Below the pieces are notes generated by a model. That model made no database searches, was not told where the DNA came from, and saw only the letters and a list, made by a program, of their open reading frames with translations. The position numbers were made by a program, and so were the translations under genes. Source: an uncultured Roseburia sp. (lineage in GTDB: Bacteria; Bacillota; Clostridia; Lachnospirales; Lachnospiraceae). Taken from it: DNA of 35,188 nucleotides. Positions 2 to 20,049 of the stretch are shown one piece after another (positions within the stretch are counted from its first letter, which is position 1; each line of letters starts with the position of its first letter). The stretch spans positions 1 to 35,188 of the forward strand of contig CANONN010000038.1 of assembly GCA_947567625.1 (NCBI GenBank), given 5' to 3'.

Positions 2-1069
2 AACTTTTATATCAATCGGTTTGGGCGAAAGCTCTACAATATGTTTTTTGAGCATTATACGGAAAATCTCTGGGGCAGGCATCCGCGCGAGATCGATGCG
101 TCCTGGGGAGCGCAGCGCGTCAAGGGGCTTTCCATCACGGCAGTCTTAAAGGACGTGTGCGGCAGAATGTTCAAAAAGAAAAACCGCAGGGTGGAGACCT
201 CGCTGATCGAAGAGTTCAAGTATCCCAAACTTGGCCCGGGGCAGCTGTGGGAAGTGACAGCGGCGGAGGTTGAAAAGCTTGGAGGTAAGATCTTAAAAAA
301 TGCGAGAGTGACCGGATTTCACAAAAACGAGGACAACCTCGTGACTTCCCTGCGGTATGAACACGATGGGAAAGAATATACCCTGGAGGGGGATTATTTT
401 ATTTCCTCCATGCCGCTCAAAGACCTGGTGGCCGGGATGAATGATGTGCCAAAGGACGCGGCAAGGATTGCGGCCGGTCTGCCTTACCGGGATTATATGA
501 CGCTCGGCGTTTTGCTCTCAAAGATCAATATCAGGAATAAGACGGCGATAAAGACCGTGGGAAATATTGTGCCCGACTGCTGGGTCTATGTGCAGGATCG
601 TTCGGTCAGGATGGGACGGTTTCAGATTTATAATAACTGGTCGCCCTATATGGTAAACGATTTGGAACATACGGTGTGGATGGGATTGGAGTACTTTGTC
701 AATGAGGGGGACAGCCTCTGGCAGATGACGAAAGAGCAGTTTTCCGCCTTTGCCGTGGACGAGATGGTAAAGCTCGGCTTGATCGACAGTCCGGGCGCAG
801 TGCTTGATACCCATATGGAGCGCGTGAAGAAAGCCTACCCCGCCTACTTTGACACATATCAGGAGATCGGGACGCTCACCGGTTATTTAAAGACCATAGA
901 AAACCTCTACTGTGTCGGGCGCAACGGGCAGCACCGCTACAATAATATTGACCACTCGATGATGACTTCCTTTGAAGCGGTCAAAAATATTTTGTCCGGG
1001 AACAAGGATGCGTCCAATATCTGGAATGTAAATACGGAACAGGAATACCACGAAACCAAGGAGGCGTGA
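2..1069 (+). CDS. FAD/NAD(P)-binding oxidoreductase of the amine oxidase / UDP-galactopyranose mutase-like type (5' end cut by window)
   Basis: The reading frame is already open at base 2, ahead of the first ATG at 41, so the N-terminal Rossmann FAD-binding part lies outside the window and about 355 residues are visible. The visible part has the substrate/cap region and, near the C-terminus, the stretch 'LYCVGRNGQHRYNNIDHSM', which looks like the second FAD-contacting segment of protoporphyrinogen oxidase-like and UDP-galactopyranose mutase-like flavoproteins. Known: such proteins oxidise or isomerise sugars, amines or polyenes using FAD. Inferred: the next gene encodes a GT-C membrane glycosyltransferase only 12 bases downstream, so a role in making a surface glycan or its lipid carrier is plausible. 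The substrate cannot be told from sequence. The family call is fairly secure and the role is not. Confidence 0.75.
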   Translation, partial: NFYINRFGRKLYNMFFEHYTENLWGRHPREIDASWGAQRVKGLSITAVLKDVCGRMFKKKNRRVETSLIEEFKYPKLGPGQLWEVTAAEVEKLGGKILKNARVTGFHKNEDNLVTSLRYEHDGKEYTLEGDYFISSMPLKDLVAGMNDVPKDAARIAAGLPYRDYMTLGVLLSKINIRNKTAIKTVGNIVPDCWVYVQDRSVRMGRFQIYNNWSPYMVNDLEHTVWMGLEYFVNEGDSLWQMTKEQFSAFAVDEMVKLGLIDSPGAVLDTHMERVKKAYPAYFDTYQEIGTLTGYLKTIENLYCVGRNGQHRYNNIDHSMMTSFEAVKNILSGNKDASNIWNVNTEQEYHETKEA

Positions 1070-1081
1070 GAGCATAGCATT

Positions 1082-2662: not shown

Positions 2663-2680
2663 AAAGTTTTAAGGAAAAGC

Positions 2681-2709
2681 TTGCGTTATAGAGGGCTTTT
2701 GTGTACAAT
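2681..2709 (+). promoter_or_regulatory. Sigma-A-type promoter for yajC
   Basis: TTGCGT at 2681-2686 and TACAAT at 2704-2709 are separated by 17 bases. This gives yajC its own start about 50 bases ahead of its ATG, apart from the glycosyltransferase gene upstream. Confidence 0.6.
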
Positions 2710-2763
2710 ATCTATTAGTTTTCTGAAAAAGGAAAAGAGTTTAATAAGTAGGAGGGCAACTTA

Positions 2764-3081
2764 ATGTTATCTATTTTAGCATCGGCCGGTACGTCAGTAG
2801 CAGGATATGGCGGTATGATTTTATGGCTGGTCATTATCTTCGCGTTTATGTATTTTTTCATGGTTCGTCCACAGAAAAAAGAACAGCAGAAGAAAAATGC
2901 CATGTTAAATGATTTGGCGGTTGGGGATACCGTGCTGACGACCAGCGGTTTTTACGGAACGGTTATTGATATCTCGGACGACACTGTTATTGTAGAGTTC
3001 GGGAGTAATAAAAACTGCCGGATACCAATGCAGAAGCAGGCGATTTCAGCTGTAGAAAAGCCAGAAGAGGCAGCAGAATAG
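2764..3081 (+). CDS. yajC: Preprotein translocase subunit YajC
   Basis: A 105-residue protein with one N-terminal membrane helix (about residues 15-35) ending in 'FMYFFMVRPQKKEQ', the hallmark of YajC. A small cytoplasmic domain follows with 'GDTVLTTSGFYGTVIDI', also typical. Known: YajC associates with SecDF-YidC and assists protein export. The start is clear: AGGAGGG lies at 2750-2756, seven bases before the ATG. The gene has its own promoter and a strong terminator, so it is probably monocistronic. In many Firmicutes yajC neighbours tgt/queA or secDF, whereas here it sits between two membrane-protein genes of apparently unrelated function. Length and motifs match the family. Confidence 0.95.
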   Translation: MLSILASAGTSVAGYGGMILWLVIIFAFMYFFMVRPQKKEQQKKNAMLNDLAVGDTVLTTSGFYGTVIDISDDTVIVEFGSNKNCRIPMQKQAISAVEKPEEAAE

Positions 3082-3120
3082 AATGAGGGAAGGTTGCGGG
3101 TTATGCGATTGTCTGCAAGC

Positions 3121-3158
3121 AAAAAGACTATGAAACGTACTGGCTCATAGTCTTTTTT
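3121..3158 (+). terminator. Rho-independent terminator after yajC
   Basis: An 11-bp perfect stem (3123-3133 pairing with 3145-3155) with an 11-base loop is followed by a run of T to 3158. It separates yajC from the following membrane-protein gene. The A-run on its left flank would let it act weakly on the other strand too. Confidence 0.9.
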
Positions 3159-3209
3159 CCTTATAAAATATTGTGTCTGAATCAGTACCGTGTGGTAATG
3201 GGGGATAAG

Positions 3210-5468
3210 ATGAATCATACAAAAAAGAAAAACATTACATATTGTGTGTTGGCGGCAGAGCTGATCGTGCTGCTTATCGCCATAATTGCGGGAGTGACAA
3301 AGGAGAAGACGGTCTATCGCTTCGGCGGCGATACAGGGGAAGCGGTTCCCTGCGAGGGAAACGAGATAGAACTGCCCAGAGGCTCGTATGAGATTGTTTT
3401 TACATATGACGCCCAGGGAGAAGACACTACCATAGAAGCGTATGCGGACACCTCGTATGGCCGTGTCTATGGTGATACGATTCCGCTGAAATATGAACAG
3501 AATGAGAAAACGTTTGAGCATTATCAGTATGAAACTACGGATTGTTTCGGTTTTGTTTTGGGTCAGTCGCAGGATGTGGAAACGCAGATTGGCAGTATGA
3601 CCATATCGCGCAACGGTAAGATGGACCGCGCTTTTTGCGCGATGCTTATATTTATCTTTCTCACCGCGGATATCTTACTGTATCTGGTGCAGAAGAAAAA
3701 GATCTGGGAGAATTTCTCACAGGAACAAAAGAATGTCTGCATCGGCCTGCTGTTCCTATTTGTTTTTTCACTGGTGCCGCTGTTTACCAATTATATTACG
3801 ATCGGACATGATACCAGGCCGCACGTCATAAGAATCGAAGGTATTGCGGAGGCGCTTCGCATGGGGCAGTTTCCGGTGCGCATGCAGCCGGGCTGGGTCA
3901 ATGACTATGGTTACCCGATTTCCGTGATGTATGGAGATCTGTTATTATATATTCCGGCTGTGTTGCGATTGATTGGCTTTAGCCTGATGAACAGCTATAA
4001 AATTTATATCGGCCTGATTTCGTTTGGTACGGTGCTGGTATCGTATCATTGCTTTAAAAATATCGCCGGCAACCGTTCGATGGGATTGTTAGGCAGCTTT
4101 TTGTATACGTTGTCGTTTTACCGTATTTTGAATGTCTATGCCAGGTCCGCGGCCGGAGAGTACACGGCGATGATGTTTCTGCCCTTGATATTTTTGGGGA
4201 TTTACCGTATTTTGCACACGGAGGGAAAAGAGAAAAACCGCTATGCGCTGCTGTTAGTGATTTCCTACACGGCCATTTTGCAGAGCCACACCCTAAGCTT
4301 TGAGATGGCGATCTTGTTTTCCGTATTATACTGTCTGTGTTTTGGGAAACGATTCTGGAAAAATATCCTGTATTTTGTCAAGGCAGCGGCAGTGACCATC
4401 GTGTTGAATTTATCGTTCCTTGTGCCGTTTGTGGATTACATGACGAGCCACGCGATGAGCTGGAGCGAGACGGAGGTTCCCAAAATACAGGAGTATGGGG
4501 TATTTGTGGCGCAGCTGTTTCAGACCTTTTTCTTTGGCGGATTTTTGTCGCAGAGCCTGACGGACGGGACGAACAATGAGATGCCGTTGTCGGTTGGCTT
4601 AGCGCTGATGGGCGTGCTAATCCTGTTTGCCTGGCAGTACCTTGCCTATCGCAAGCAATTAAGCGGGCAGAAGGAGGAGTGGAACGGGCAATGCCGCATG
4701 GCGGTCCTGATGCTGCTTAGTATCCTGATGGCATGTTGGTTTTTCCCCTGGAAATGGCTGGCCAATATCCCGGCAATTGGAAAATATCTTGTGCCATACC
4801 AGTATCCGTGGCGGTTTTTCACCTATGCGACGGTGTTCGGTGTTTTTCTCGCGCTCTATATGCTGCGCAATATGGAAATCTTAAACCAGCATGTACTAAG
4901 GAAGGTTACAATCGGAGCGCTCTGTGTGGTCACGGTGGTACATGCGCTGGTGCTTTATGACCGCATGTTGGCATTGTACAGCGCGGAGTCGATCAGCAGC
5001 GGAGCCTATTATGATTCTGTTCTGGCGACAGCCGGCGGAGAGTTTTTGCTGGAGGACGCCAACCGCTATGATACTTATGATAAAGGGCTTAGGGCAGAGG
5101 AGGGAATATCCATTGTAGACAGTGAGAGGAATCATTACCGGATATCGGTAGAGCTGGAAAATACTGCGGGAGACGATCGGCTTCTTGTGCTGCCGCTGTA
5201 TGCCTACAAGGGGTTTGTCGTCAAAGATACGCAGACGGGAAAGCGGATGGAGACCGAAGCGGAGGAGGAGACGCAAAAGCTTACGGTGACGATACCGGCA
5301 GGATATTCCGGGACAGTCAAGGCTGATTTTAAGGAACCATGGTATTGGAGAGTGTCGGAGCTGGTATCACTTGCCATGGCGGTGCTCATTGTTTTGTGGT
5401 ATGATAAAACGTATCGCAGAGAGGGACGGCAGATTGTGCCAAAGCAAGTGAAAAAGGCAAAAAAGTAA
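3210..5468 (+). CDS. Large polytopic membrane protein with PTPS-related / YfhO-like domain
   Basis: About 752 residues. There is one N-terminal membrane helix and an external domain of roughly 110 residues. A second helix and a core of about ten hydrophobic segments follow, then a C-terminal external domain of about 150 residues, a last helix and a lysine-rich tail. The segment 'YITIGHDTRPHVIRIEGIAE', followed by 'GWVNDYGYPISVMYGDLL', resembles the membrane-protein family called '6-pyruvoyl-tetrahydropterin synthase-related', whose members look like GT-C glycosyltransferases and YfhO. The frame is open from a TTG at 3171, with ATGs at 3198 and 3210. I prefer 3210 because GGGG sits about 6 bases ahead and the hydrophobic helix then follows a short lysine-rich N-terminus. 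Function is unknown; a role in surface polymer synthesis is inferred. Confidence 0.7.
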   Translation: MNHTKKKNITYCVLAAELIVLLIAIIAGVTKEKTVYRFGGDTGEAVPCEGNEIELPRGSYEIVFTYDAQGEDTTIEAYADTSYGRVYGDTIPLKYEQNEKTFEHYQYETTDCFGFVLGQSQDVETQIGSMTISRNGKMDRAFCAMLIFIFLTADILLYLVQKKKIWENFSQEQKNVCIGLLFLFVFSLVPLFTNYITIGHDTRPHVIRIEGIAEALRMGQFPVRMQPGWVNDYGYPISVMYGDLLLYIPAVLRLIGFSLMNSYKIYIGLISFGTVLVSYHCFKNIAGNRSMGLLGSFLYTLSFYRILNVYARSAAGEYTAMMFLPLIFLGIYRILHTEGKEKNRYALLLVISYTAILQSHTLSFEMAILFSVLYCLCFGKRFWKNILYFVKAAAVTIVLNLSFLVPFVDYMTSHAMSWSETEVPKIQEYGVFVAQLFQTFFFGGFLSQSLTDGTNNEMPLSVGLALMGVLILFAWQYLAYRKQLSGQKEEWNGQCRMAVLMLLSILMACWFFPWKWLANIPAIGKYLVPYQYPWRFFTYATVFGVFLALYMLRNMEILNQHVLRKVTIGALCVVTVVHALVLYDRMLALYSAESISSGAYYDSVLATAGGEFLLEDANRYDTYDKGLRAEEGISIVDSERNHYRISVELENTAGDDRLLVLPLYAYKGFVVKDTQTGKRMETEAEEETQKLTVTIPAGYSGTVKADFKEPWYWRVSELVSLAMAVLIVLWYDKTYRREGRQIVPKQVKKAKK

Positions 5469-5607: not shown

Positions 5608-6708
5608 ATGGAGTGTCATGTAGGCGTGATCGCGGGTGACGGTATCGGCCCCGAGATCGTGGCGGAAGCCAGGAAAGTATTGAATAAAATCGGCGAGAAA
5701 TACGGACATACGTTTCGGTATGAGGATATCCTGATGGGGGGCTGTTCGATCGACGCGACGGGAGTGCCGCTCACCGACGAGGCAATTGCCGCGGCGAAGG
5801 CGGCGGATGCGGTGTTGATGGGTTCGATCGGCGGCAACACCACGACTTCCCCCTGGTACAAGCTCGCGCCGGAGCTTCGGCCGGAGGCGGGGCTTTTAAA
5901 ATTGCGCAAGTCCTTAAACCTATTTGCCAATTTAAGACCGGCATACTTATATGAAGAGTTAAAAGAAGCATGTCCGCTCCGCGGGGATATCATTGGAGAC
6001 GGCTTCGACATGATGATTATGCGTGAGCTTACCGGCGGGCTTTACTTTGGCGCGCGTGAGACGAAGGAAGTGGACGGCGTTTTGACGGCGGTTGACACCT
6101 TAACGTATAATGAGAAAGAGATACGGCGCATTGCAAAGCGCGGTTTTGATATCGCGATGAAGCGTAAGAAGAAGGTGACGAGCGTGGACAAGGCCAATGT
6201 CCTGGATTCGTCGCGTCTGTGGCGCAAGATTGTGGAGGAAGTGGCGAAAGATTATCCGCAGGTTGTCCTAGAGCATATGCTCGTCGACAATTGCGCGATG
6301 CAGCTGGTGAAAGATCCGGGGCAGTTTGACGTGATCTTGACCGAAAATATGTTTGGCGATATTTTATCCGACGAGGCGAGTATGGTGACCGGTTCCATCG
6401 GTATGCTCTCGTCCGCCAGTTTAAATGATACGAAGTTCGGCCTCTATGAGCCGAGCGGCGGTTCCGCCCCGGATATCGCAGGCAAGGGTATCGCCAATCC
6501 GATTGCGACGATCTTGAGTGCGGCGATGATGCTGCGCTATACCTTTGACTTGGACAAAGAAGCGGACGCGGTCGAGCAGGCGGTCAGGCAGGTGTTAAGA
6601 GGCGGTTACCGCACGATTGACATTATGCCGCAGGAGGAAGAAAAGAGACTTACGGTAAAACAGGTTGGCACAAGGGAGATGGGAGATCTGATCTGCGCCA
6701 ATATATAG
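5608..6708 (+). CDS. leuB: 3-isopropylmalate dehydrogenase
   Basis: Catalyses NAD-dependent oxidation and decarboxylation of 3-isopropylmalate in leucine synthesis. The 366 residues match the family's usual length. Visible motifs are the N-terminal '[12 protein letters not shown]', the arginines of '[16 protein letters not shown]' that bind substrate, the catalytic lysine region '[15 protein letters not shown]', the metal-binding aspartates of '[13 protein letters not shown]', and the NAD-adenine loop '[19 protein letters not shown]'. The frame is open from a TTG at 5584, but the ATG at 5608 has GGAGG at 5595-5599 and gives the standard N-terminus. It begins an operon with ilvD 13 bases later. 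LeuA, LeuC and LeuD are not in the window, so leucine synthesis must be completed from another locus. Confidence 0.96.
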
Positions 6709-6710
6709 AT

Positions 6711-6715
6711 GGAGG
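6711..6715 (+). promoter_or_regulatory. Ribosome binding site that decides the ilvD start
   Basis: GGAGG at 6711-6715 directly touches an ATG at 6716 but lies 6 bases ahead of the ATG at 6722. Normal spacing therefore points to 6722 as the true start. Confidence 0.75.
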
Positions 6716-6721
6716 ATGAAT

Positions 6722-8389
6722 ATGAAGAGCGATAATGTAAAAAAGGGGATGCAGCAGGCGCCTCACCGAAGCCTTTTTAACGCGCTGGGCTTCACAGAGG
6801 AGGAGATGGACAAGCCGATGGTCGGTATTGTCAGCTCTTACAACGAGATTGTACCGGGCCATATGAACCTCGATAAGATTGTAGAAGCCGTCAAGCTTGG
6901 CGTTGCGGAGGCGGGCGGCGTGCCGGTGGTATTTCCCGCGATCGCCGTCTGCGACGGTATCGCGATGGGCCATATCGGCATGAAGTATTCTCTGGTTACG
7001 CGCGATCTGATCGCGGATTCCACCGAGTGTATGGCGCTTGCCCACCAGTTTGACGCGCTGGTGATGGTGCCAAACTGTGATAAGAACGTGCCGGGACTTT
7101 TGATGGCGGCGGCGCGCATCAATGTGCCCACCGTGTTTGTCTCCGGCGGTCCGATGCTGGCGGGCCGCGTCAAGGGGCAGAAGAGAAGTCTCTCCTCCAT
7201 GTTTGAGGCGGTCGGCTCTTACGAGGCCGGTTCCATGACGGAGGAGGACGTAAGGGAGTACGAAGAAAAGGTGTGCCCGACCTGCGGCTCCTGCTCCGGT
7301 ATGTACACCGCCAATTCCATGAACTGCCTCACCGAGGCGCTTGGCATGGGACTTCGCGGCAACGGCACGATTCCTGCCGTGTACTCGGAGCGCATCAAGC
7401 TCGCAAAACATGCGGGTATGGCGGTGATGGAGATGTACCGCAAGAATATCCGCCCAAGGGATATCATGACAAAGGAAGCGGTTTTAAACGCCCTGACGGT
7501 GGATATGGCGCTGGGATGTTCGACCAACAGTATGCTCCATCTGCCGGCGATCGCGCATGAGATCGGTTTTGATTTCGATATCGCCTTTGCCAACCCGATC
7601 AGTGAAAAGACGCCGAATCTGTGTCATCTGGCGCCGGCCGGCCCGACTTACATGGAGGACTTAAACGAGGCGGGCGGCGTGTATGCCGTGATGAAAGAAC
7701 TTGCGGATATCGGTCTGTTGCATACCGAATGTATGACGGTTACCGGTCAGACGATCGGAGAAAATATAAAAGATGCAGTCAACAAAAATCCCGAGGTTAT
7801 CCGTCCTGTGGACAATCCGTACAGCAAGACGGGCGGGCTTGCCGTGTTAAAAGGCAATCTGGCGCCGGACGGAAGCGTTGTCAAGCGCTCCGCCGTCGTG
7901 GAGGAGATGATGGTGCACGAAGGGCCGGCGAGAGTGTTCGACTGTGAGGAGGATGCGATTGCGGCGATCAAGGGCGGTAAAATCGTCGCGGGCGATGTGG
8001 TTGTCATTCGCTATGAGGGGCCCAAGGGCGGTCCCGGCATGCGCGAGATGCTAAACCCGACGTCGGCGATCGCCGGCATGGGCCTGGGTGCTTCGGTGGC
8101 ATTGATTACCGACGGGCGCTTTTCGGGCGCCAGCCGCGGGGCTTCCATCGGCCATGTCTCACCGGAGGCGGCCGTCGGCGGGCCGATCGCGCTTGTGGAG
8201 GAGGGAGACCTTATCAAGATCAACATCCCGGCGCTCTCTCTGGAGCTTTCCGTATCCGATGAGGAGCTTGCGGCGCGCAGGGCCAAATGGCAGCCCAGGG
8301 AGCCGAAGGTGACGGAAGGCTATTTAAAGAGATATACGTCTCTTGTGACATCCGGCAACCGCGGGGCAATTTTACAGCTGCCAGAGTAA
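6722..8389 (+). CDS. ilvD: Dihydroxy-acid dehydratase
   Basis: Dehydrates 2,3-dihydroxy-isovalerate and 2,3-dihydroxy-3-methylvalerate to the 2-oxo acids that precede valine, leucine and isoleucine. The 555 residues fit the IlvD/Edd family. Iron-sulfur ligand candidates are C119 in 'NCDKNVPG' and C185/C188/C191 in '[10 protein letters not shown]'. The position that carries an extra cysteine in [2Fe-2S] members reads '[13 protein letters not shown]' with no Cys, so an oxygen-sensitive [4Fe-4S] type is inferred, as suits an anaerobe. C-terminal motifs '[20 protein letters not shown]' and '[11 protein letters not shown]' are intact. It lies 13 bases behind leuB and 36 bases ahead of ilvB, evidently on the same transcript. 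Confidence 0.97.
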
Positions 8390-11352: not shown

Positions 11353-12515
11353 TGTATCGTTATCATTGTTTAAACCCGATTGCTTCCGTGGGACTGGAGC
11401 TGTTTTCGGAGGAATATCAAAAGGTGGAGGAGTTAAAGGATGCCGATGCCGCCCTGGTGAGAAGCGCCGCCATGCACGATCTGGAGCTGCCGGAGAGCCT
11501 TTTGGCTGTCGCAAGGGCAGGAGCGGGCGTCAACAATATTCCGCTGGATAAATGTGCGGAGAAAGGCATTGTCGTGTTCAACACGCCGGGCGCCAATGCC
11601 AACGGCGTAAAGGAGCTGGTGTTTGCCGGGATGCTCTACGCCTCCCGCGATCTGGTCGGCGGTATCGAGTGGTGTCTCGAGAATCAAAATGACGACAATA
11701 TCGCCAAGACGGCGGAAAAGCAGAAGAAAAATTTTGCGGGAACCGAGATTTCCGGCAAGAAGATCGGCGTGATCGGCCTGGGCGCTATCGGCGTTTTGGT
11801 TGCGAACGCGGCTACGCATATGGGAATGGAGGTTTACGGCTATGACCCGTATATTTCCGTCAATGCGGCGTGGAATCTCTCGCGCAGCGTCAAGCATGTG
11901 ACGAACGTGGAGGATATCTATCGCGAATGTGATTTTATCACCGTCCATGTGCCGCTTTTGGATTCGACCAGAAAGATGATTAACGCGGAGGCGATCGCGA
12001 TGATGAAGCCGACAGCGGTCGTGCTCAATTTTGCCAGAGACCTGCTGGTGGACGAGGAAGCCATGGTAGACGCGCTGGCGAAAGACAAGATCAAAAAATA
12101 TGTGTCCGATTTCCCGAACACGACGACAGTCGGCGCCAAGGGCTGTATTGTGACCCCGCATCTCGGCGCGTCCACGGCGGAGTCGGAGGACAATTGTGCG
12201 ATTATGGCCGTGCGCGAAATCCGCGATTTCCTGGAGAACGGCAATATTGTCCACTCGGTCAATTTCCCGGACTGCAATATGGGCGCATGTACGACCGCGG
12301 GCAGAGTCGGTATTCTGCACAAGAATGAGAGCAATATCTTAAGCGGCTTTACCGCGATTTTCGGCGAGGCGGGGATTAACATCGACGGCATGGCTAATAA
12401 GTCGAAAGGCGATTATGCCTATGCGCTGTTTGATATTGACGCGTCGGTCGGCGATGAGGTGTTAAAGAAGCTGGAGGCATGCAATGGCGTACTACGCGTG
12501 CGCAAGGTGAAATAG
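11352..12515 (+). CDS. serA: D-3-phosphoglycerate dehydrogenase with C-terminal ACT domain
   Basis: Oxidises 3-phosphoglycerate with NAD, the first step of serine synthesis. At 387 residues it has split substrate-binding segments, a central Rossmann domain with 'GKKIGVIGLGAIGVLVAN', and an ACT domain from about residue 318 ('LSGFTAIFGEAGINIDG'), which in this family often mediates serine feedback. R229 in 'NFARDLLVDEEA' and H270 in 'VTPHLGASTAESED' are two of the three catalytic residues. The glutamate expected between them (as in 'DVFxxEP') is not at the usual place: the segment reads 'YVSDFPNTTTVG' and is shorter. A GAGGAGG site inside the end of serC precedes the ATG. The start overlaps the serC stop by one base. 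Confidence 0.93.
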   Translation: MYRYHCLNPIASVGLELFSEEYQKVEELKDADAALVRSAAMHDLELPESLLAVARAGAGVNNIPLDKCAEKGIVVFNTPGANANGVKELVFAGMLYASRDLVGGIEWCLENQNDDNIAKTAEKQKKNFAGTEISGKKIGVIGLGAIGVLVANAATHMGMEVYGYDPYISVNAAWNLSRSVKHVTNVEDIYRECDFITVHVPLLDSTRKMINAEAIAMMKPTAVVLNFARDLLVDEEAMVDALAKDKIKKYVSDFPNTTTVGAKGCIVTPHLGASTAESEDNCAIMAVREIRDFLENGNIVHSVNFPDCNMGACTTAGRVGILHKNESNILSGFTAIFGEAGINIDGMANKSKGDYAYALFDIDASVGDEVLKKLEACNGVLRVRKVK

Positions 12516-12519
12516 TTCT

Positions 12520-12551
12520 GATTCACGGCTGATTTCACAAGACTGTGAATC
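12520..12551 (+). repeat. Competing hairpins between serA and the DUF1015 gene
   Basis: GATTCAC at 12520-12526 is a perfect inverted match to GTGAATC at 12545-12551. A second candidate arm at 12531-12538 (GATTTCAC) can pair with the same right arm with one bulged T and a 6-base loop. The two folds exclude each other. No T-run follows. This may be a processing or regulatory element in the 75-base gap. Confidence 0.4.
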
Positions 12552-12560
12552 GTAATACAA

Positions 12561-12573
12561 AATGATAATCATT
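12561..12573 (+). promoter_or_regulatory. Near-palindrome resembling the core of a Fur box
   Basis: The 13-mer AATGATAATCATT at 12561-12573 is a dyad around one central base and matches the middle of the classical Fur consensus, but the outer bases do not follow it. It lies just ahead of the DUF1015 ribosome binding site. Metal-responsive regulation would be speculative. Confidence 0.25.
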
Positions 12574-12590
12574 TAACGGAGGTGTATGAA

Positions 12591-13838
12591 ATGGCAACAG
12601 TAAAACCATTTATAGCCATCCGTCCATGTCAGGGGAAGGCGGCAGAGATTGCTGCCCTCCCTTATGATGTTTATAACAGGGAGGAAGCGACAAGAGCGGT
12701 GGAGCATGCGCCGCTGTCCTTTCTGCGCATCGACAGGGCGGAGACGCAGTTTTCAAGTTCCGTCGATACCTATGCGGACCAGGTGTATCAGAAAGCCCAT
12801 GATTTGCTCTGGGGCATGGTGGAAGATGGCTCCTTTATAAGAGAACACAAGCGCTGCTATTATGTCTACGAGCTTACCATGGACGGAAGGACACAGACCG
12901 GCATCGCGGCCTGTGCGTCGATCGACGATTACCAGAACAACGTCATCAAAAAACATGAAAATACCCGCGCGGAGAAAGAAAAGGACCGCATCCGCCATGT
13001 GGATGTGTGCAGTGCGCAGACGGGGCCTATTTTCCTCGCATACCGCTCGAACGATACCATCAATCAGATTGTCGAGCGCGCAAAAGCCGGGGAGGCGGAA
13101 TACGATTTCACCGCGGAGGACGGAATCAGGCACCGCGTGTTTGTGATCGCGGAGGATGCGGATATTGCGGCGATCGAGCAGGCGTTTGCGGGGATTGGAG
13201 AGATCTATATCGCAGACGGCCATCACCGCGCGGCGTCCGCGGTCAAGGTGGGACTTGGGCGGCGTGCGTCGCATCCCGGATATGACGGCACGGAGGAGTT
13301 TAATTATTTTCTCTCGGTGCTCTTTCCCGACGACCAGTTAATGATTATGGATTATAACCGTGTGGTAAAAGACTTAAACGGATATTCATTTCACGATTTC
13401 GTAATGGAAGTGCAGAAGCGTTTTGATGTGACCGAAATTACCGGGCGAAAGGATGTGCGGCCAGATGAGCGCGGCAGCTTTACCATGTATGTGGAGGGAC
13501 ATTGGCTGCTGTGTCGGATTCGCAAACAGGACAGAAAGCCGCAGGATCCGGTGGCAGATCTGGACGTTTCGCTCTTGCAGGACATGCTCTTAGAACCAGT
13601 GCTCGGCATCAAGGACCCCAAAACGGATGATCGAATCGACTTTGTCGGCGGTATCCGCGGCATGGAGGAGCTGGTGCGCCGCTGCCAGTCGGACTGCGCC
13701 GTGGCCTTTGCCATGTACCCGACGTCGATCGGGGAGCTGTTTGCCGTGGCCGACGCAGGGCTCCTGATGCCGCCGAAGTCTACCTGGTTTGAGCCGAAGC
13801 TTCGCAGCGGCTTGTTTATTCACGAAATAGAACGATAA
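12591..13838 (+). CDS. DUF1015 family protein linked to serine biosynthesis
   Basis: A soluble 415-residue protein without signal peptide or membrane segments. Conserved DUF1015 features are the N-terminal 'IRPCQGKAAEIAALPYDVYN', the central 'KKHENTRAEKEKDRIRH' and D209-R213 'YIADGHHRAASA'. A DG(x)HR motif is also the signature of ParB/sulfiredoxin-fold proteins, which include the free serine kinases SerK and SbnI. I infer a phosphate- or nucleotide-handling role, but no activity can be assigned from sequence. The gene lies 75 bases behind serA and 17 bases ahead of the mscS-family gene. SerC and SerA are present but no SerB-type phosphatase is, so this protein is a candidate for the phosphoserine step. 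The ATG at 12591 has GGAGGTG at 12579-12584; the GTG at 12582 lies within that site. Confidence 0.88.
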   Translation: MATVKPFIAIRPCQGKAAEIAALPYDVYNREEATRAVEHAPLSFLRIDRAETQFSSSVDTYADQVYQKAHDLLWGMVEDGSFIREHKRCYYVYELTMDGRTQTGIAACASIDDYQNNVIKKHENTRAEKEKDRIRHVDVCSAQTGPIFLAYRSNDTINQIVERAKAGEAEYDFTAEDGIRHRVFVIAEDADIAAIEQAFAGIGEIYIADGHHRAASAVKVGLGRRASHPGYDGTEEFNYFLSVLFPDDQLMIMDYNRVVKDLNGYSFHDFVMEVQKRFDVTEITGRKDVRPDERGSFTMYVEGHWLLCRIRKQDRKPQDPVADLDVSLLQDMLLEPVLGIKDPKTDDRIDFVGGIRGMEELVRRCQSDCAVAFAMYPTSIGELFAVADAGLLMPPKSTWFEPKLRSGLFIHEIER

Positions 13839-13855
13839 AGGAACGGAGGTTAATT

Positions 13856-14770
13856 ATGTATCTAGCAGTGGAACCGATTCCCACCAGCGCGACGGAGACG
13901 ATCGAAATTTTAAACAGTGCACAGCAGGGACTTCAGGAAGTGACGAAAAATCCGGGCATCATCCGCGCATGGCTCGAAGGCTTGCTGCCGGATGTGCTGG
14001 GATTTGCGATACAGCTTGTGGTGGCGGTTGTCGTGTATCTGATTGCCAGCCGGCTGATACACCTCGTGTTAAAGATTGTGCGGCGTTCCATGGAAAGAGC
14101 CAACACCGACGAGGGTGTCAAGCAGTTTGTGCTGCCGTTAATCAAATATACCTTATATCTGATTTTAATTTTTATCATCATGGGGCTTTTTGGCATTGCC
14201 ACGACGTCCGCGGTGGCGGTGTTAGGTTCTGCCGGCGTCGCAGTCGGCCTCGCCCTCCAGGGCAGCCTTTCCAATTTTGCCGGCGGCGTGCTGATTCTGA
14301 TTCTAAAGCCGTTTAAGGTCGGCGACTACATTGTGGAGCACGGGCATGGCAATGAGGGCACGGTTGCCGAGATTTCTATTTTTTACACAACGCTGACGAC
14401 GCCGGACAACCGGGTGATCGTGATTCCGAACGGCAATCTCTCCAACAGCAGCCTGACGAATGTCTCGCGTCTCGACAAACGCAGGGTCGATCTCGTGGTG
14501 GGAATCGGCTATGAGGCGGATATCAGGAAAGCGAAGGAAGTGTTCTATCATGTGGCCGAGCAGGAGAGCACAAGGCTTCCGGAGGAGGAGATCACGGTGT
14601 TTGTGGACAATCTGGGCGTTTCCTCCGTCGACCTTGGGCTTCGCATCTGGGTCAATGCCGCCGATTACTGGGCGGCAAAATGGCGGCTGACAGAAAATAT
14701 CAAGGCCGCGCTGGACGAGCATCAGATTTCGATTCCCTATCAGCAGATTGATGTGCAGATCAAGCAATAA
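13856..14770 (+). CDS. Small-conductance mechanosensitive channel, MscS family
   Basis: A 304-residue membrane protein with three N-terminal helices (about residues 40-65, 80-125 and the pore helix about 120-150). The pore-lining helix shows the Gly/Ala pattern 'GSAGVAVGLALQGSLSNFA', and the beta domain that follows has 'LKPFKVGDYIVEHG' and 'VIVIPNGNLSNSSLTNVSR', both hallmarks of MscS. Such channels open on membrane tension to release solutes after osmotic downshock. The start is supported by GGAGG about 7 bases ahead. It is only 17 bases behind the DUF1015 gene, so it seems to be the last gene of the serine operon, for no obvious functional reason. Length matches the short MscS class. Confidence 0.95.
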   Translation: MYLAVEPIPTSATETIEILNSAQQGLQEVTKNPGIIRAWLEGLLPDVLGFAIQLVVAVVVYLIASRLIHLVLKIVRRSMERANTDEGVKQFVLPLIKYTLYLILIFIIMGLFGIATTSAVAVLGSAGVAVGLALQGSLSNFAGGVLILILKPFKVGDYIVEHGHGNEGTVAEISIFYTTLTTPDNRVIVIPNGNLSNSSLTNVSRLDKRRVDLVVGIGYEADIRKAKEVFYHVAEQESTRLPEEEITVFVDNLGVSSVDLGLRIWVNAADYWAAKWRLTENIKAALDEHQISIPYQQIDVQIKQ

Positions 14771-14829
14771 TATAGTGAATGTATGGATTATGAAGCAATG
14801 AATAGAAATTGGCAAAGAAAGTAAAGCGC

Positions 14830-14870
14830 AAAAATAGCCGTCCCCTCTCAAAGGTTACGGCTATTTTTTT
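14830..14870. terminator. Bidirectional terminator between convergent mscS and ABC importer genes
   Basis: A 12-bp perfect stem (14830-14841 with 14857-14868) carries A5 on its left and T7 on its right. It can therefore stop both the plus-strand serC-to-mscS transcript and the minus-strand importer transcript, whose last codon is at 14872. Confidence 0.93.
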
Positions 14871-14871
14871 A

Positions 14872-15696
14872 CTACAGAACTTTCGAGAGAAAATCACGAA
14901 GTCTTGGATTTTTGGGATTGCCAAAGAATTCCTCCGGCGTCCCGCTCTCTAAGATCTGGCCCTCGTCGATAAAAAGGACCTTGTTGGCGACTTCCCTGGC
15001 GAACCCCATCTCGTGTGTGACGATCACCATCGTCATGCCCTCCGCGGCGAGCGCTTTCATCAGGTCTAAGACCTCGCCGACCATCTCCGGGTCGAGTGCG
15101 CTGGTGGGCTCGTCGAAGAGAATGACATCGGGATTCATGGCCAGAGAGCGCACGATGGCGATGCGCTGCTTTTGTCCGCCGGAGAGCGTCGAGGGGTAGA
15201 CGTTGGCCTTGTCCTCCATGCCGATGCGGCGCAAAAGAGAGAGCGCATTTTCGCGCGCCTGGGCCGTAATCTTTGCCGCGGTAGTCGCGATGGCGGCCTT
15301 CTCCCGTTTCTCTTTGCGAAACAGGTTTGTAAACGGCAGAAAAAAGTTTTGCCGCTTTGCTCTGCGCAAGTCCTGGCATTGGACATACACGGGCGCCAGC
15401 ATAATATTCTGCAATACGGTCTTGTTGTTGAACAGATTAAAATGCTGGAAGACCATGCCCATATGCCGGCGGTGTATATTGATATCTACTTTGGGGTCGG
15501 CGATATCCACGCCGTTAAAGATAATCTGACCGCCGGTGGGGTCTTCCATGCAGTTTAGGCAGCGCAAAAATGTACTTTTGCCGGAGCCGGAGGGTCCGAT
15601 GACAACCATGATATCACCTTTTTCGATGGTGACGTTGATGCCGTTTAAAACTTTGTTTTCTCCAAACTGTTTTTCCAGATTAATGACGTCTATCAC
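14872..15696 (-). CDS. Polar amino acid ABC importer, ATP-binding protein (GlnQ-type) with an insertion
   Basis: ATPase of a HisP/GlnQ-type importer. Walker A 'GPSGSGKST' lies at 34-42, the Q-loop in '[10 protein letters not shown]', the signature 'LSGGQKQR' from 171, Walker B 'VILFDEP' at 191-197 and the H-loop in 'VTHEMGF'. Family members are about 240-250 residues, whereas this one has about 274 because of roughly 32 extra, basic, helix-prone residues between 'NIMLAPV' and '[11 protein letters not shown]', in the helical subdomain that meets the permease. The frame is open from a TTG at 15732. I place the start at the GTG at 15696, where the protein aligns with GlnQ ('[12 protein letters not shown]') and an AAGGAG site lies 11 bases ahead. 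It overlaps the permease gene by 17 bases. Confidence 0.93.
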
Positions 15697-16390
15697 TTTT
15701 CCCAAGGCTCCTTTCCATAAGTTTGATTCCAAGGCTAATGATTAATACGAGGGCGATATAAATCATGGCCATCACCAGATAGGGAACCATAAATTCATAG
15801 CTGCTGCTGCCTATGTAGTTGAACGCCACGTAGAGATCGGCGGCGCCGACAAAGCTGACGACGGAGGTCTCTTTGATCAGGGTGATAAATTCATTGCCCA
15901 TGGTGGGGAGAATATTCTTTACCGCCTGCGGAATGACGATCTTTCGCATGGCTGTGCCAAAGCTAAGGCCGACCGCGCGGCCGCCCTCCATCTGCCCCGG
16001 GTCTACAGAGAGGATGCCGCCCCGCATGATCTCGGAGATATAGGCGCCGCTGTTTAGCCCGAAGACGAGGATAGAAACCTGTAAGCCGGTGAAATGCACA
16101 TCCAGGATCGGAAGCAGGACATAGTAAACGACAAGCAGCTGCACTACCATCGGGGTACCGCGGAACAGCGCAACATAAAAGCTGCAAATGCCGTTTAACA
16201 CTTTTGGAAGTCTTTTATACTTCGGAATGACACGTACCGTCGCGATCAGGGTGCCGATGACGATGCCGATTACAAGACCGAGCACGGCGATCAGCAATGT
16301 GTTTTTCAGTCCCTCCACGACTTTGACATATCCATTATAATCGATAAAGCTTTCAATGAATTTGTCAATTTTCTGACTCAAATTTCCCAT
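15680..16390 (-). CDS. Polar amino acid ABC importer, permease (HisM/GlnP family)
   Basis: A 236-residue inner-membrane permease with about five membrane helices. The N-terminal '[19 protein letters not shown]' is the standard start of the first permease helix, and the EAA loop '[20 protein letters not shown]' contacts the ATPase. Transporters of this type take up glutamine, glutamate, cystine, histidine or related solutes. Only one permease is encoded, so it presumably works as a homodimer. The ATG at 16390 has AAGGAC about 8 bases ahead. It follows the binding-protein gene by 29 bases and overlaps the ATPase gene. Confidence 0.95.
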
Positions 16391-16419
16391 GAAAAAGTCC
16401 TTTCGTGTGAGGCGCCGTT

Positions 16420-17271
16420 TTAACGCATTTTGTTGATGGAGGCTGTGATGCTCGCCGCCGGTGCGGAGTCAATGATGACATAATCAATATTTTTATTGAG
16501 CAGATCCTGAACCGCGAGCGAGCCGTTTTTGTAGCCGACCGTCTCCATGGCAAAGCCGTCAAAGCCGAAGCTCTCGTCGCCCTGGCAGTAGAACTGTCCG
16601 GTAGTGCCGTTTTGCACGCCGACTTTCACCTTGCCGTCTTTGGATTTTAAGATGGTTTCAATCGAGGCAGCGTCGGTACAGCCGTCAAACTCGGCGTCGT
16701 CGGAGAGGACGATCAGACGCTGGGCAGCGTTGTAATAGGGGTCTGTGAATGTCACGTATTCTTCGCGGTCCGGTTTGATGGTTAAGCCGGCCATCGCGAT
16801 ATCGCATTTTTGCTGTCCGACGGAGAGGCATACCGATTCAAAGTCCATGTTCTGAATGACCAGCTCTTTGCCGAGCTTTTCTGCCAGAGCGGCGGCAATC
16901 TCCATATCAATCCCGTAATAGCTGTCGCCCGGTGTGTATTCAAACGGCTCAAAAGCGGCGTTGGTGGCCACGACCAGCTGATCTTTGCTGTCGTCTAACT
17001 CGGCAGATTTTACTGCAACCGGCGTCCCGTCGCCGAAATAGTGGTTACAGATCTCGTCGAATGTGCCGTTTTCCTTGATTTCTTTGATAAAGGCGTTGAC
17101 TTCCGCTAAAAGCTCCGGCTGGGTTTTGTCAATCCCGAATGCATATTCCTCGTCTGTGAGGTCGATTTCAATCACTTTCGCGGTGGTAGATGAGCTGTCG
17201 CCGCAGCCTGCCAGCACCGATACGGCCAGCGTCAGAGAGAGTGCGGCTGTCACTAATTTCTTGATTTTCAT
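16420..17271 (-). CDS. Amino acid ABC importer lipoprotein substrate-binding protein with circularly permuted order
   Basis: A 283-residue lipoprotein: basic N-terminus, hydrophobic helix, and a lipobox ending 'VLAGC' with C23 as the lipidated cysteine. The order of the mature part is unusual. Residues about 33-80 ('LTDEEYAFGIDK', then 'LLAEVNAFIKEIKENGTFDE' and 'HYFG') resemble the last segment of ordinary type II binding proteins. The usual first segment ('VVATNAAFEPFEY', 'YYGIDMEIAAALAEKLG') only starts at about residue 97. The protein stops at 'IDSAPAASITASINKMR', where ordinary members continue into the segment found here at the front. Ligand residues are visible in 'TIKPDREEYVTF' and 'YVIID'. 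The reading frame is uninterrupted. AGGAGG precedes the ATG. Specificity is unknown. Confidence 0.92.
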   Translation of the reverse strand: MKIKKLVTAALSLTLAVSVLAGCGDSSSTTAKVIEIDLTDEEYAFGIDKTQPELLAEVNAFIKEIKENGTFDEICNHYFGDGTPVAVKSAELDDSKDQLVVATNAAFEPFEYTPGDSYYGIDMEIAAALAEKLGKELVIQNMDFESVCLSVGQQKCDIAMAGLTIKPDREEYVTFTDPYYNAAQRLIVLSDDAEFDGCTDAASIETILKSKDGKVKVGVQNGTTGQFYCQGDESFGFDGFAMETVGYKNGSLAVQDLLNKNIDYVIIDSAPAASITASINKMR

Positions 17272-17309
17272 AATAAATCCTCCTAAAAATTAATATATTA
17301 ATAAAATCT

Positions 17310-17338
17310 AATATATCATTTTATGGCGAAAAATGCAA
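17310..17338 (-). promoter_or_regulatory. Sigma-A-type promoter for the amino acid importer operon
   Basis: Read on the minus strand, TTGCAT (17338-17333) and TATATT (17315-17310) are 17 bases apart. The predicted leader to the binding-protein ATG is about 30 bases, too short for a riboswitch. Confidence 0.6.
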
Positions 17339-17391
17339 TGGTAACAGTTCAGCTTAGGACTTTGGCAACGCAAAAACGGGATGGAAATGAG

Positions 17392-17420
17392 TTGACAAAA
17401 TTGATAGAATGTGCTAATTT
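17392..17420 (+). promoter_or_regulatory. Promoter for the cold-shock gene
   Basis: A consensus TTGACA at 17392-17397 is followed after 17 bases by TAATTT at 17415-17420, with TGC directly ahead of the -10 (an extended -10). The leader to the ATG is about 45-50 bases, shorter than the long cspA leaders of enteric bacteria. Confidence 0.5.
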
Positions 17421-17470
17421 TGAGATGCTAATATTACAAGCTATATTTATGCATTAGGAGGATTTTAGTT

Positions 17471-17674
17471 ATGCAGCAGGGTACTGTTAAGTGGTTTAAC
17501 GCAAAAAAAGGTTATGGATTTATTTCAGATGCTGAGGGGAATGACATTTTTGTACATTTTTCCGCTTTGAACATGGATGGATTCAAAGAATTAAAAGACG
17601 GTGAGCAGGTTGAATTTGAAGTTACCGAGGGCGCAAAAGGACCTCAGGCAGCGAATGTCAGCCGCATCGGTTAA
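17471..17674 (+). CDS. Cold-shock domain protein (CspA/CspB family)
   Basis: A 67-residue single-domain OB-fold nucleic acid chaperone. It shows '[15 protein letters not shown]' with the RNP1 motif KGYGFI and 'DIFVHFSAL' with RNP2, and has the standard length. Known: such proteins bind single-stranded RNA and melt secondary structure during cold shock or growth transitions. TAGGAGG lies about 10 bases ahead of the ATG. It is transcribed alone, between its own promoter and a strong terminator. It is acidic overall, like other Firmicute Csps. Confidence 0.97.
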
Positions 17675-17710
17675 TCATAAAAGGAGATCTGTTAATAATA
17701 ACCATAAAAG

Positions 17711-17750
17711 AATGCCGCAAAATCGTCAGACGATGGAGCGGCATTTTTTT
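17711..17750 (+). terminator. Rho-independent terminator after the cold-shock gene
   Basis: AATGCCGC at 17711-17718 pairs with GCGGCATT at 17738-17745, with a second small stem (ATCG/CGAT) inside the loop. A run of T to 17750 follows. Confidence 0.92.
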
Positions 17751-17802
17751 GGGTGCATGTACTTTTATCGAATAAAGTTTTAGAAACTTCCCCAAAAGGA
17801 GC

Positions 17803-17831
17803 TTGATTTTCTCTACTGTCTACGTTAAAAT
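17803..17831 (+). promoter_or_regulatory. Sigma-A-type promoter for the YesL-family gene
   Basis: TTGATT at 17803-17808 and TAAAAT at 17826-17831 are separated by 17 bases. The leader to the ATG at 17869 is about 30 bases. Confidence 0.6.
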
Positions 17832-17868
17832 TACTTTTATGGTATTTTGGTATACAGAAAGGAAGCTT

Positions 17869-18534
17869 ATGAGCGGAGGAATATTTGATTTAGATAACAA
17901 ATTTAACCGGGCGCTGTCTAAGATTGTGGACTGCGTGATCTTGAGCATTTTGTGGATTGTCAGCTCCGTTCCGATACTGACGATCGGCGCGTCGACGACA
18001 GCGCTTTACTATACGGTGCACAAAGTGATCCTGCACAATCGCGGTTATGTGTGGCGCGATTACTGGGCGGCGTTTATCTCGAATTTTAAGAAATCGACCA
18101 TCGCGTGGTGTATCATGCTGGCGGTTGCATTTGTGTTTGCGCTGGATATCAATATCATGCGCCAGTTTTCCGAACTGGGAGAAAAGATCGGCTCGATCTA
18201 TACGGTATTTTATGTTTTTCTCGCCGTGGAGGCGGTGTGGGCCAATTATGTGTTTTCTTATATGGCGCGCTTTGAGGATAAGCTTCGCCGCATTTTCCGC
18301 AATACATTGGTGATTATGTTCGTCAATCTGATCTGGTCGCTGCTCGTGCTCATCATGTTTGCGGTGGCGTGCTATGTGGTATATATCTTTCCGCCTGTGA
18401 TTGTCATCATACCGGCGGCGTATATGGTCTGCCTGGATGATGTGGTCGAGCGGGTCTATGTAAAATACATGACGCCGGAACAGGTGGCCGAGGAAAAAGA
18501 GCGCAATATGGAAAATGCGAAAGATGCCGAGTAA
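17869..18534 (+). CDS. YesL/DUF624-family membrane protein
   Basis: A 221-residue membrane protein with about five helices. The start 'IFDLDNKFNRALSKIVDC' followed by 'ILWIVSSVPILTIGASTTAL' is characteristic of the YesL (DUF624) family. Members often sit next to carbohydrate ABC transporters, but their function is unknown. No sugar genes are near this copy. The open frame extends upstream to 17803 over the promoter, and the ATG at 17869 has AAGGAAG 5 bases ahead and gives the family's usual N-terminus. The C-terminus is a short charged cytoplasmic tail ending in 'KDAE'. Confidence 0.88.
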   Translation: MSGGIFDLDNKFNRALSKIVDCVILSILWIVSSVPILTIGASTTALYYTVHKVILHNRGYVWRDYWAAFISNFKKSTIAWCIMLAVAFVFALDINIMRQFSELGEKIGSIYTVFYVFLAVEAVWANYVFSYMARFEDKLRRIFRNTLVIMFVNLIWSLLVLIMFAVACYVVYIFPPVIVIIPAAYMVCLDDVVERVYVKYMTPEQVAEEKERNMENAKDAE

Positions 18535-18591
18535 AGGGAACCGTTGCAGGCTGAATCGTTACGCGTATGGCCCTGATGTTGCTTTTTATTA

Positions 18592-18620
18592 TTGATTTAT
18601 AGAAAGACTTATAGTATATT
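18592..18620 (+). promoter_or_regulatory. Sigma-A-type promoter for plsX-acpP
   Basis: TTGATT at 18592-18597 and TATATT at 18615-18620 are separated by 17 bases. No FapR-like long inverted operator was recognised in the surrounding 120 bases. Confidence 0.55.
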
Positions 18621-18653
18621 ATGGTTGGCATAGATGCCAAAATGAAAGAAAAT

Positions 18654-18667
18654 GCCGCTTGCGCGGC
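18654..18667 (+). repeat. Small hairpin at the plsX translation start
   Basis: GCCGC (18654-18658) and GCGGC (18663-18667) pair around a 4-base loop, just ahead of the AGAGG ribosome binding site at 18674-18678. It could tune initiation, or be chance. Confidence 0.35.
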
Positions 18668-18682
18668 GGAATGAGAGGAAAT

Positions 18683-19714
18683 ATGCAGAGCGATCTGTCT
18701 GAGATAACAAATATAGCGCTCGATGCCATGGGCGGTGATTATGCGCCGGCAGAACCCGTCAAGGGCGCGGTCGACGCGGTGAACGCCAGAGATGACATCA
18801 AAATATTCCTGTTGGGCCAGGAGGAGGCGGTTGCGCGGGAGCTGGAGAAATATTCCTATCCGAAAGAGCAGATTCAGGTGGTACATGCCCCGGAGGTGAT
18901 CGAGACCGCGGAGCCGCCGGTCAATGCCATTCGCGGGAAAAAGCAGTCTTCCATTGTAATCGGTATGAACATGGTAAAGGAACAGGAGGCCGACGCCTTT
19001 GTGTCGGCGGGCAGTTCCGGCGCCGTTCTGGTCGGCGGACAGGTGATCGTGGGGCGGATTAAAGGAATCGAGCGGCCGCCGCTAGCGCCGTTAATTCCCA
19101 CCGAGAAGGGAGTTTCGCTGTTGATCGACTGCGGCGCCAATGTGGATGCGCGCGCTTCCCATCTGGTACAGTTTGCCAGGATGGGTTCCATCTACATGGA
19201 GAATGTTCTGCATATTCCAAAGCCAAGGGTAGCCATTGTAAATATCGGCGCGGAGGAGGAAAAGGGCAATGCGCTGGTAAAAGAGACGATCCCCCTGCTG
19301 CGGGCCCTGGAAGACATACATTTTGTAGGATGTATCGAGGCGAGGGAAATTCCGCGCGGCGCGGCGGACGTGATCGTTTGCGAGGCTTTTGTCGGCAATG
19401 TGATTTTGAAGCTGTACGAGGGGCTTAGCAGTACGCTAATCGGTGTGGTCAAAAAGGGCATGATGAGTACGTTTAAGAGTAAAATCGGCGCGGCGCTGGC
19501 TCTGCCGGCACTCAAAACAACGATCAAGACTTTTGATGCATCACAGTATGGAGGCGCGCCGCTTTTGGGCCTAAACGGTCTTGTGGTGAAAACGCACGGA
19601 AGCTCTAAGGCGCAGGAGATTACCAATGCGGTGTATCAGTGCGTGACGTTTAAACAACAGGACATCAACGGTAAAATAAGAAAAAATATAATTGGTTCAC
19701 AGGAACGGAAATGA
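18683..19714 (+). CDS. plsX: Phosphate acyltransferase PlsX
   Basis: Converts acyl-ACP and phosphate to acyl-phosphate, feeding PlsY in phosphatidic acid synthesis; it is a peripheral membrane protein. It has 343 residues, near the family norm. The N-terminal '[19 protein letters not shown]' is the PlsX signature, followed by '[15 protein letters not shown]' and '[12 protein letters not shown]'-like sequence ('[19 protein letters not shown]'). The frame is open from a TTG at 18659 with ATGs at 18671 and 18683. The ATG at 18683 has AGAGG four bases ahead and is preferred. Its stop overlaps an ATG at the head of acpP. The plsX-acpP pair is standard, linking phospholipid synthesis to the acyl carrier. 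Confidence 0.96.
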
Positions 19715-19722
19715 GGATGAGC

Positions 19723-19962
19723 ATGGAATTTGAAAAATTAAAAAAAATTATTGCGGAAGTTTTGAACGTCGACATGGAAGAGATTACGATGGAGACCACG
19801 TTTGTGGATGATTTGGGCGCGGATTCCCTCGATATCTTCCAGATCATCATGGGGATTGAAGAGGAATTTGATATTGAGATCACCAACGAGGAGGCGGAGC
19901 GCATTGCCACTGTCGCGGACGCGGTGGAGGAGATCAAAAATGCGTTGAATGTGTCGAAGTGA
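19723..19962 (+). CDS. acpP: Acyl carrier protein
   Basis: A 79-residue acidic carrier protein of fatty acid synthesis. The phosphopantetheine attachment serine lies in '[14 protein letters not shown]', and helices I-IV are intact. In-frame ATGs occur at 19711, 19717 and 19723. The site GAGG at 19713-19716 is 6 bases ahead of 19723, and '[17 protein letters not shown]' is the common ACP N-terminus, so I choose the third. The sequence '[20 protein letters not shown]' departs slightly from the very common 'DSLDTVELVMALEEEF'; this is seen in Clostridia and need not imply a special role. Confidence 0.94.
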
Positions 19963-20049
19963 TCATACGCGCTGTATCGTGGATGTATGTAAGATATACA
20001 GATTGCAGACGGGGCATTTGCAAAGCGAATCACATAGAAAATGATGTCA

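Follow-up and report, generated by a model that had tools for sequence, protein, structure and literature searches.

Does the receptor gene of an amino acid importer in an uncultured Roseburia sp. (Lachnospiraceae) encode a familiar solute-binding protein (SBP) with its parts in an unfamiliar order, and how might such an order have arisen? The window examined here is contig CANONN010000038.1 of assembly GCA_947567625.1, 35,188 nucleotides in full, and the gene lies on its minus strand at 16420..17271. Ordinary SBPs of family 3 (PF00497) run in the order N-L-T, where N denotes the opening half of lobe 1 together with the first hinge strand, L lobe 2, and T the closing part of lobe 1. A first-pass annotation of the window proposed that T had moved to the front, straight after the lipobox. 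We confirm that the window SBP has the type II fold of family 3 (PF00497) in circularly permuted form, its order being lipobox-T-N-L. We put at about nine in ten the probability that the gene encodes the receptor of a polar-amino-acid ATP-binding cassette (ABC) importer, an ordinary two-lobed Venus-flytrap SBP whose chain is circularly permuted. Its parts are as follows.

16420..17271, minus strand: circularly permuted family 3 solute-binding lipoprotein, T-N-L, 283 amino acids (open reading frame [ORF], phmmer against the PDB, segment hidden Markov models [HMMs], AlphaFold2)
17279..17284, minus strand: AGGAGG, likely the ribosome-binding site of the SBP gene, seven bases ahead of the ATG (sequence)
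17203..17271, minus strand: signal peptide and lipobox LAGC, residues 1-23 (sequence)
17026..17184, minus strand: segment T, residues 30-82, C-terminal in ordinary SBPs (phmmer, HMMs, AlphaFold2 of T alone)
16984..17025, minus strand: linker between the former C and N termini, residues 83-96 (comparison of T-N gaps)
16696..16983, minus strand: segment N, residues 97-192, normally the opening half of lobe 1, and what we take to be the first hinge strand (phmmer, HMMs, AlphaFold2)
16423..16695, minus strand: segment L, residues 193-283, lobe 2 and chain end (HMMs, AlphaFold2, stop position)

Two readings of segment order agree. In phmmer searches against the PDB, the same chains matched the window SBP twice, with the order of the matches swapped. 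Residues 11-173 of the AncQR chain aligned to query residues 98-274 (66.8 bits) and residues 182-233 to query residues 30-81 (20.2 bits); in the GlnBP chain, residues 4-124 aligned to 98-218 and residues 174-223 to 32-81 (18.2 bits, which alone reaches only E 0.012). We also built segment HMMs exclusively from normal-order proteins (21 N-L-T domains, comprising 15 ORFs, three domains of one tandem protein, and three domains of another subfamily whose segment borders were partly cut by eye). These placed T at window residues 32-79 (42.2 bits, E 2.7e-15 in a one-protein search), N at 97-188 (111.2 bits), and L at 216-275 (48.1 bits), and the residue numbers first given for the moved segment (33-80) and for the usual beginning (about 97) were correct to within a few residues. 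Both pieces are homologous to one normal protein in swapped order, a pattern expected of a natural permutant. As a control, a T match (E<1e-3) without an N or L match occurred in 0 of the 2028 ORFs of the fetched loci, a count that replaces a narrower control (0/1820) that was partly true by selection. Among 146 T-N-L ORFs, the stop comes 0 to 10 residues past L; because the median is 3, there is no room for a second T at the C terminus, and the chain ends, as first suggested, where the last segment would normally attach. Since its order is T-N-L and not N-L-T, we file the window SBP as a circularly permuted variant rather than as an ordinary PF00497 member.

The frame runs intact from its ATG, the lipobox carries Cys 23 (invariant in 29/29 aligned rows), and the motif residues that we take to contact the ligand are invariant in 53/53 rows (the window SBP and 52 relatives), in line with the first-pass annotation on all three points. 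PF00497 scores 110.8 bits against a curated cut-off of 26.4, and the protein falls below the cut-off for every one of its 16 NCBIfam matches. AlphaFold2, run as a monomer on an alignment of the same 53 sequences, returned one confident model (predicted local distance difference test [pLDDT] 90.1, predicted template modeling score [pTM] 0.76), in which T forms strands at 31-34 and 41-48 and helices at 52-67 and 70-79. Modeled alone, T is weaker (pLDDT 76.9) and has no strand, and so it seems to need the rest of lobe 1. Both Foldseek and VIA-align matched window residues about 92-283 to the first 170 to 220 residues of GlnBP, ArgBP, and LAO type chains. These residues have the two-lobed periplasmic-binding-protein fold, and the placement of T comes from model confidence and secondary structure only.

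How common is this order? Named relatives were taken as the best 80 of 521 from a scan of GTDB r220 contigs, and T-N-L was found in all 80 (titles include Lachnospiraceae, Agathobacter, Acetatifactor, Roseburia, Eubacterium, Coprococcus, Butyrivibrio, Oscillospiraceae, Clostridia, and others). Near full-length matches occur in 9/63 genomes of the genus (E<=3.5e-112) and 40/397 of the family (E<=5.2e-84), and two further family genomes (G092 and G409) carry members of a second T-N-L set. Broader samples gave 11/295 genomes for the order (four of the window's family), 25/245 for the class (three of its family), and 2/249 for the phylum (E<=1e-42, both of its family). These genome counts rest on alignment span, with segment models applied to the fetched part of the rows, and span alone is an unsafe guide to T-N-L: G143 covers query residues 3-277 and is N-L-T.

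The setting of the gene is that of an importer. At the window locus, a BPD_transp_1 permease and an ABC ATPase lie adjacent to the SBP gene.

15680..16390, minus strand: permease, BPD_transp_1 (PF00528), next downstream of the SBP gene (ORF list, profile matches)
14872..15732, minus strand: ATPase, GlnQ-like ABC protein, listed from TTG (ORF list, profile matches)
15265..15381, minus strand: insert in the ATPase between Q-loop and signature, ORF residues about 118-156 (spacing comparison)

Both genes follow downstream on the same strand in 74/80 named loci; in L140 and L152 they are on the other strand, and L122 and L141 reach, or nearly reach, the edge of the stored sequence. No other SBP ORF was found in 76/80. 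The permuted order recurs across genus and family, the transport genes accompany it at most named loci, and together with the single confident model this supports a functional rearrangement rather than damage, as had been proposed. The ATPase likelier starts at an in-frame GTG at 15696, behind GGAAAGGAG. Its insert, basic in the window's T-N-L lineage, lengthens the distance from Q-loop to signature to a median of 89 residues (up to 112) in 134 rows of that lineage, against 65 beside L002 and 55 in the 60 ATPases that were scored next to SBPs of the N-L-T, L-T-N, and second-set T-N-L kinds; no ATPase among these 60 has an insert of the window's size. The ATPases of L065-L067 have 55 to 61 residues there, but 117 to 147 from Walker A to Q-loop versus 48; rows with 55 at L113, L114, and L146 look like a neighboring second transporter. 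No Rfam match was found at window 12000-20000 (E<=0.5), and among the loci of 16 of the 80 named relatives there was one TwoAYGGAY RNA, in L096 at 6578-6743 (plus strand), downstream of the ATPase gene.

In the mechanism that we propose, a loop of about 14 residues connects the old termini, and the chain opens just ahead of the second hinge strand. The protein would then fold like GlnBP, bind a polar amino acid between its lobes, close, and deliver the ligand to the permease. Judging from segment order, lobe 1 would become contiguous in sequence, the lobes would be tied by one crossing chain rather than two, and the lipid anchor would hold the protein at the hinge and not at the start of the first strand of lobe 1. 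An anchor on another face could change docking, as the first-pass annotation had also supposed.

We then asked whether T-N-L is the sole rearrangement in this family. Segment models applied to the fetched loci identified 208 SBP ORFs: 146 T-N-L, 19 L-T-N-permease, 16 L-T-N, 15 N-L-T, three T-N-L-permease (L106, L117, and L121), one threefold N-L-T-permease, and eight with an incomplete reading. The last group was read by eye as L-T-N (L002), a kinase followed by T-N-L (L078), N-L-T (L097, L146, L113, and L114), and two pieces of L026; normal-only models gave the same order for all 184 permuted ORFs. A near whole L-T-N model is spanned in 51/250 family genomes (E<=2e-87), a count that leaves out G257, a tandem that also spans the model, and in which longer unfetched frames could hide tandems. 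In the phylum sample, 10/199 genomes match the L-T-N model (E<=1e-40). Among the loci fetched from five of these outside the window's genome, L211 is L-T-N, L212 is a double L-T-N fused to a permease (described below), L215 and L216 are N-L-T, and L214 (ORF 703-1524, minus strand) is a fourth rotation opened inside lobe 2, running from the second half of L through T and N to the first half of L, with its own lipobox and with permease and ATPase behind it. Related Bacillota therefore contain all three rotations of N, L, and T plus one protein opened inside lobe 2. No L-T-N relatives were found in viral contigs. The window's own genome (93% complete) holds two importer-linked SBPs detectable with PF00497, both permuted and in different ways; the second, L002, is L-T-N beside its own permease and ATPase, its L having been read by eye and by likeness to L097. 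The remaining PF00497 matches in this genome belong to two long proteins that resemble sensors, one of which, read by eye, carries a GGDEF-type region at its C terminus. Several unusual architectures also turned up: a 779-amino-acid L-T-N-L-T-N-permease in L212 (ORF 595-2931, plus strand; first L by eye), in which order alone does not tell how the domains pair; a 973-amino-acid protein in L070 (ORF 671-3589, minus strand) that joins three closely similar N-L-T domains to a permease; and an L-T-N-permease frame in L026 (1186-2751, plus strand) broken by an in-frame stop inside N.

Did these orders arise once or repeatedly? We put 92 domains into one common order and calculated an unrooted tree, on which the order labels need six changes, three for L-T-N and three for T-N-L. 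Approximately unbiased (AU) tests rejected a single clade of all permuted rows (p 2e-5) and of all L-T-N rows (p 7e-11), the latter mainly through L002; without L002, the L-T-N clade gave p 0.0067, for a group chosen after the tree. The straightforward interpretation is that L-T-N arose at least twice and that T-N-L arose separately, although in an unrooted tree some changes may be reversals to another order. Normal-order L097 is the nearest row to L002 in all three segments, and normal-order L205 is among the three nearest to L061 in each segment; since the segments of each share their nearest normal kin, both cases fit rotation of one gene. The rotation may have come about by tandem duplication followed by loss of the outer parts, a route suggested by the occurrence among relatives of the threefold N-L-T-permease fusion (L070) and of a neighboring permuted gene pair (L077). 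An event of this kind would also account for the L-T-N proteins, and according to the AU tests it took place more than once among them.

Several observations weigh against this account or parts of it. AU tests did not reject a single T-N-L origin (p 0.196), nor did they reject one for the second T-N-L set (p 0.382, for a group chosen after the tree). Foldseek and VIA-align are sequential, so the position of T lies outside their matches, and with T alone the first 7 of 12 Foldseek rows were SBPs, none significant (E >= 1). No solved permuted member was found among 48 distinct PDB sequences matched by profile A1 or the best 60 of 88 matched by profile A3 (E<=1e-15), apart from the tandem chain 6h30, which matches across its domain junction. 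Two of the 80 named loci (L143 and L150) show neither permease nor ATPase, and no riboswitch or T-box that might hint at the ligand was found at window 12000-20000 or beside the 16 relatives. Finally, the normal relatives of the window lineage are distant and the nearest rows differ between segments, so that here the descent of all three segments from one gene can only be presumed.

This last point bears on the possibility that T was contributed by a second SBP gene, making the protein a chimera rather than a rotation of one gene. The shared nearest kin in the L002 and L061 lineages speak against it, and we regard it as unlikely. Alternatively, T, sitting at a free and anchored N terminus, might be swapped between two molecules with a dimer as the working unit, and a related SBP, Thermotoga maritima ArgBP, reportedly swaps its C-terminal helix. 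However, the monomer, the only form modeled, was predicted with high confidence, and the T-to-N match gap of 13 to 23 residues in the 146 T-N-L ORFs can be an ordinary loop within one molecule, so that a swap seems improbable. It is more improbable still that the protein is an orphan receptor or sensor. Such a role might be read into L143 and L150 or into L078 (10-2154, plus strand), a 715-amino-acid protein kinase that continues through a membrane stretch into an outer T-N-L domain, of which T and N were assigned by model and L by eye, but it fits poorly with the transport genes downstream at most loci and with the three T-N-L proteins fused to a permease. We reject the reading of residues 33-80 as an extra N-terminal domain on a normal or C-terminally shortened SBP, to which we give hardly any credence: although most of what the sequential aligners place lies within residues about 92-283, the C-terminal model of normal SBPs matches T, which is confident and has strands in the full model but loses them when modeled alone. 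The first-pass annotation had named an extra domain together with a normal C-terminal segment as the finding that would overturn its claim, and no second such segment exists. An assembly error or pseudogene, conceivable in a draft genome of 110 contigs, is refuted by the independent copies in the 80 named loci and in the genus and family genomes.

Why might rotation have recurred? It is possible, though we hold the idea only tentatively and think it rather doubtful, that rotation, at both hinge crossings and in one case within lobe 2, has happened again and again among the type II amino-acid SBPs of Clostridia and of related Bacillota because termini at the hinge are useful: a lipid anchor or fused permease could then grip the trap at its hinge through a very short tether. 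In the window model, the first strand begins 8 residues past lipid Cys 23, and the core of the ten second-set T-N-L proteins begins 6 to 17 residues past theirs. The median distance from Cys to core is 11 in 135 T-N-L ORFs (11 more were not callable by pattern) versus 23 in 15 N-L-T ORFs, a hint only of a shorter tether in T-N-L, since values of 5 to 9 occur in three N-L-T rows, the sequences compared share ancestry, and no difference is seen between L-T-N and N-L-T (p 0.94). From the last SBP segment to the permease match there are 5 to 16 residues in 22 permuted fusions, compared with 37 and 29 in the normal-order fusions L070 and L113. Short gaps of both kinds would keep the hinge side near the membrane. 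Known importer complexes generally keep the hinge away from the membrane, and a hinge-held trap, if real, would call for a docking geometry unlike theirs.

The family offers one well-understood fold in all three rotations, two of them in one genome. Matched sets of this kind make it possible to ask whether ligand binding and docking to the permease depend on the two hinge crossings, on where the anchor sits, and on the contiguity of the lobes, and they provide permuted scaffolds ready for use in biosensors. Because profile searches split such proteins into two pieces without remark on their order, the class can easily escape notice.

The closest known systems are SBPs of the GlnBP/HisJ/ArtJ type (PF00497, type II, cluster F), with which the window SBP shares its sequence, two lobes, the AGLTI..R, GTTG, and D..PA motifs, and an operon with a BPD_transp_1 permease and a GlnQ-like ATPase; it differs in being T-N-L rather than N-L-T and, as far as order can tell, in being hinge-anchored with one crossing chain. 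In tandem substrate-binding-domain permeases such as GlnPQ, the solved T-linker-N junction (PDB 6h30) matches the permuted run. We take 6h30 to be two complete normal-order domains, and by analogy such tandem domains suggest a route by which rotation can arise. Glycine-betaine and molybdate SBPs, which we assume to be of type II, offer a further parallel. The part of the CPSARST report consulted groups glycine-betaine SBPs (PDB 2B4L, 1R9L, and 1SW1) with molybdate SBPs in one permutation family (PMC2395249), and these resemble the present case as permutation relations among two-lobed SBPs; however, they are described there as <24% identical and were found by structure, whereas the window family has recognizable sequence and normal-order kin. 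TpMglB-2 (Tp0684) of "Type Ic / Cluster Bc" is, according to the sections consulted, likewise a naturally permuted, lipid-anchored SBP assigned to an ABC importer, with relatives in Gram-positive bacteria, and its authors suggest an adaptation to tethering (PMC4990184). We considered membership of this type for the window SBP and rejected it, given PF00497 at 110.8 bits and no type I SBP family among Pfam matches up to E 1. Among the matches listed in open-licence full-text literature, judged mostly by title and the start of the abstract, we found no report of permuted PF00497 proteins, and a term look-up in PMC2861598 and PMC2213659 gave nothing on the subject in the text covered. As described in those sections, TpMglB-2 has a type I sugar fold, another cut point, and need of a fourth crossing, whereas the window family is an amino-acid family of type II and comes in several rotations. 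Natural permutation of SBPs was already known; what is new, as far as these searches go, is several rotations inside one amino-acid family that retains its normal-order kin.
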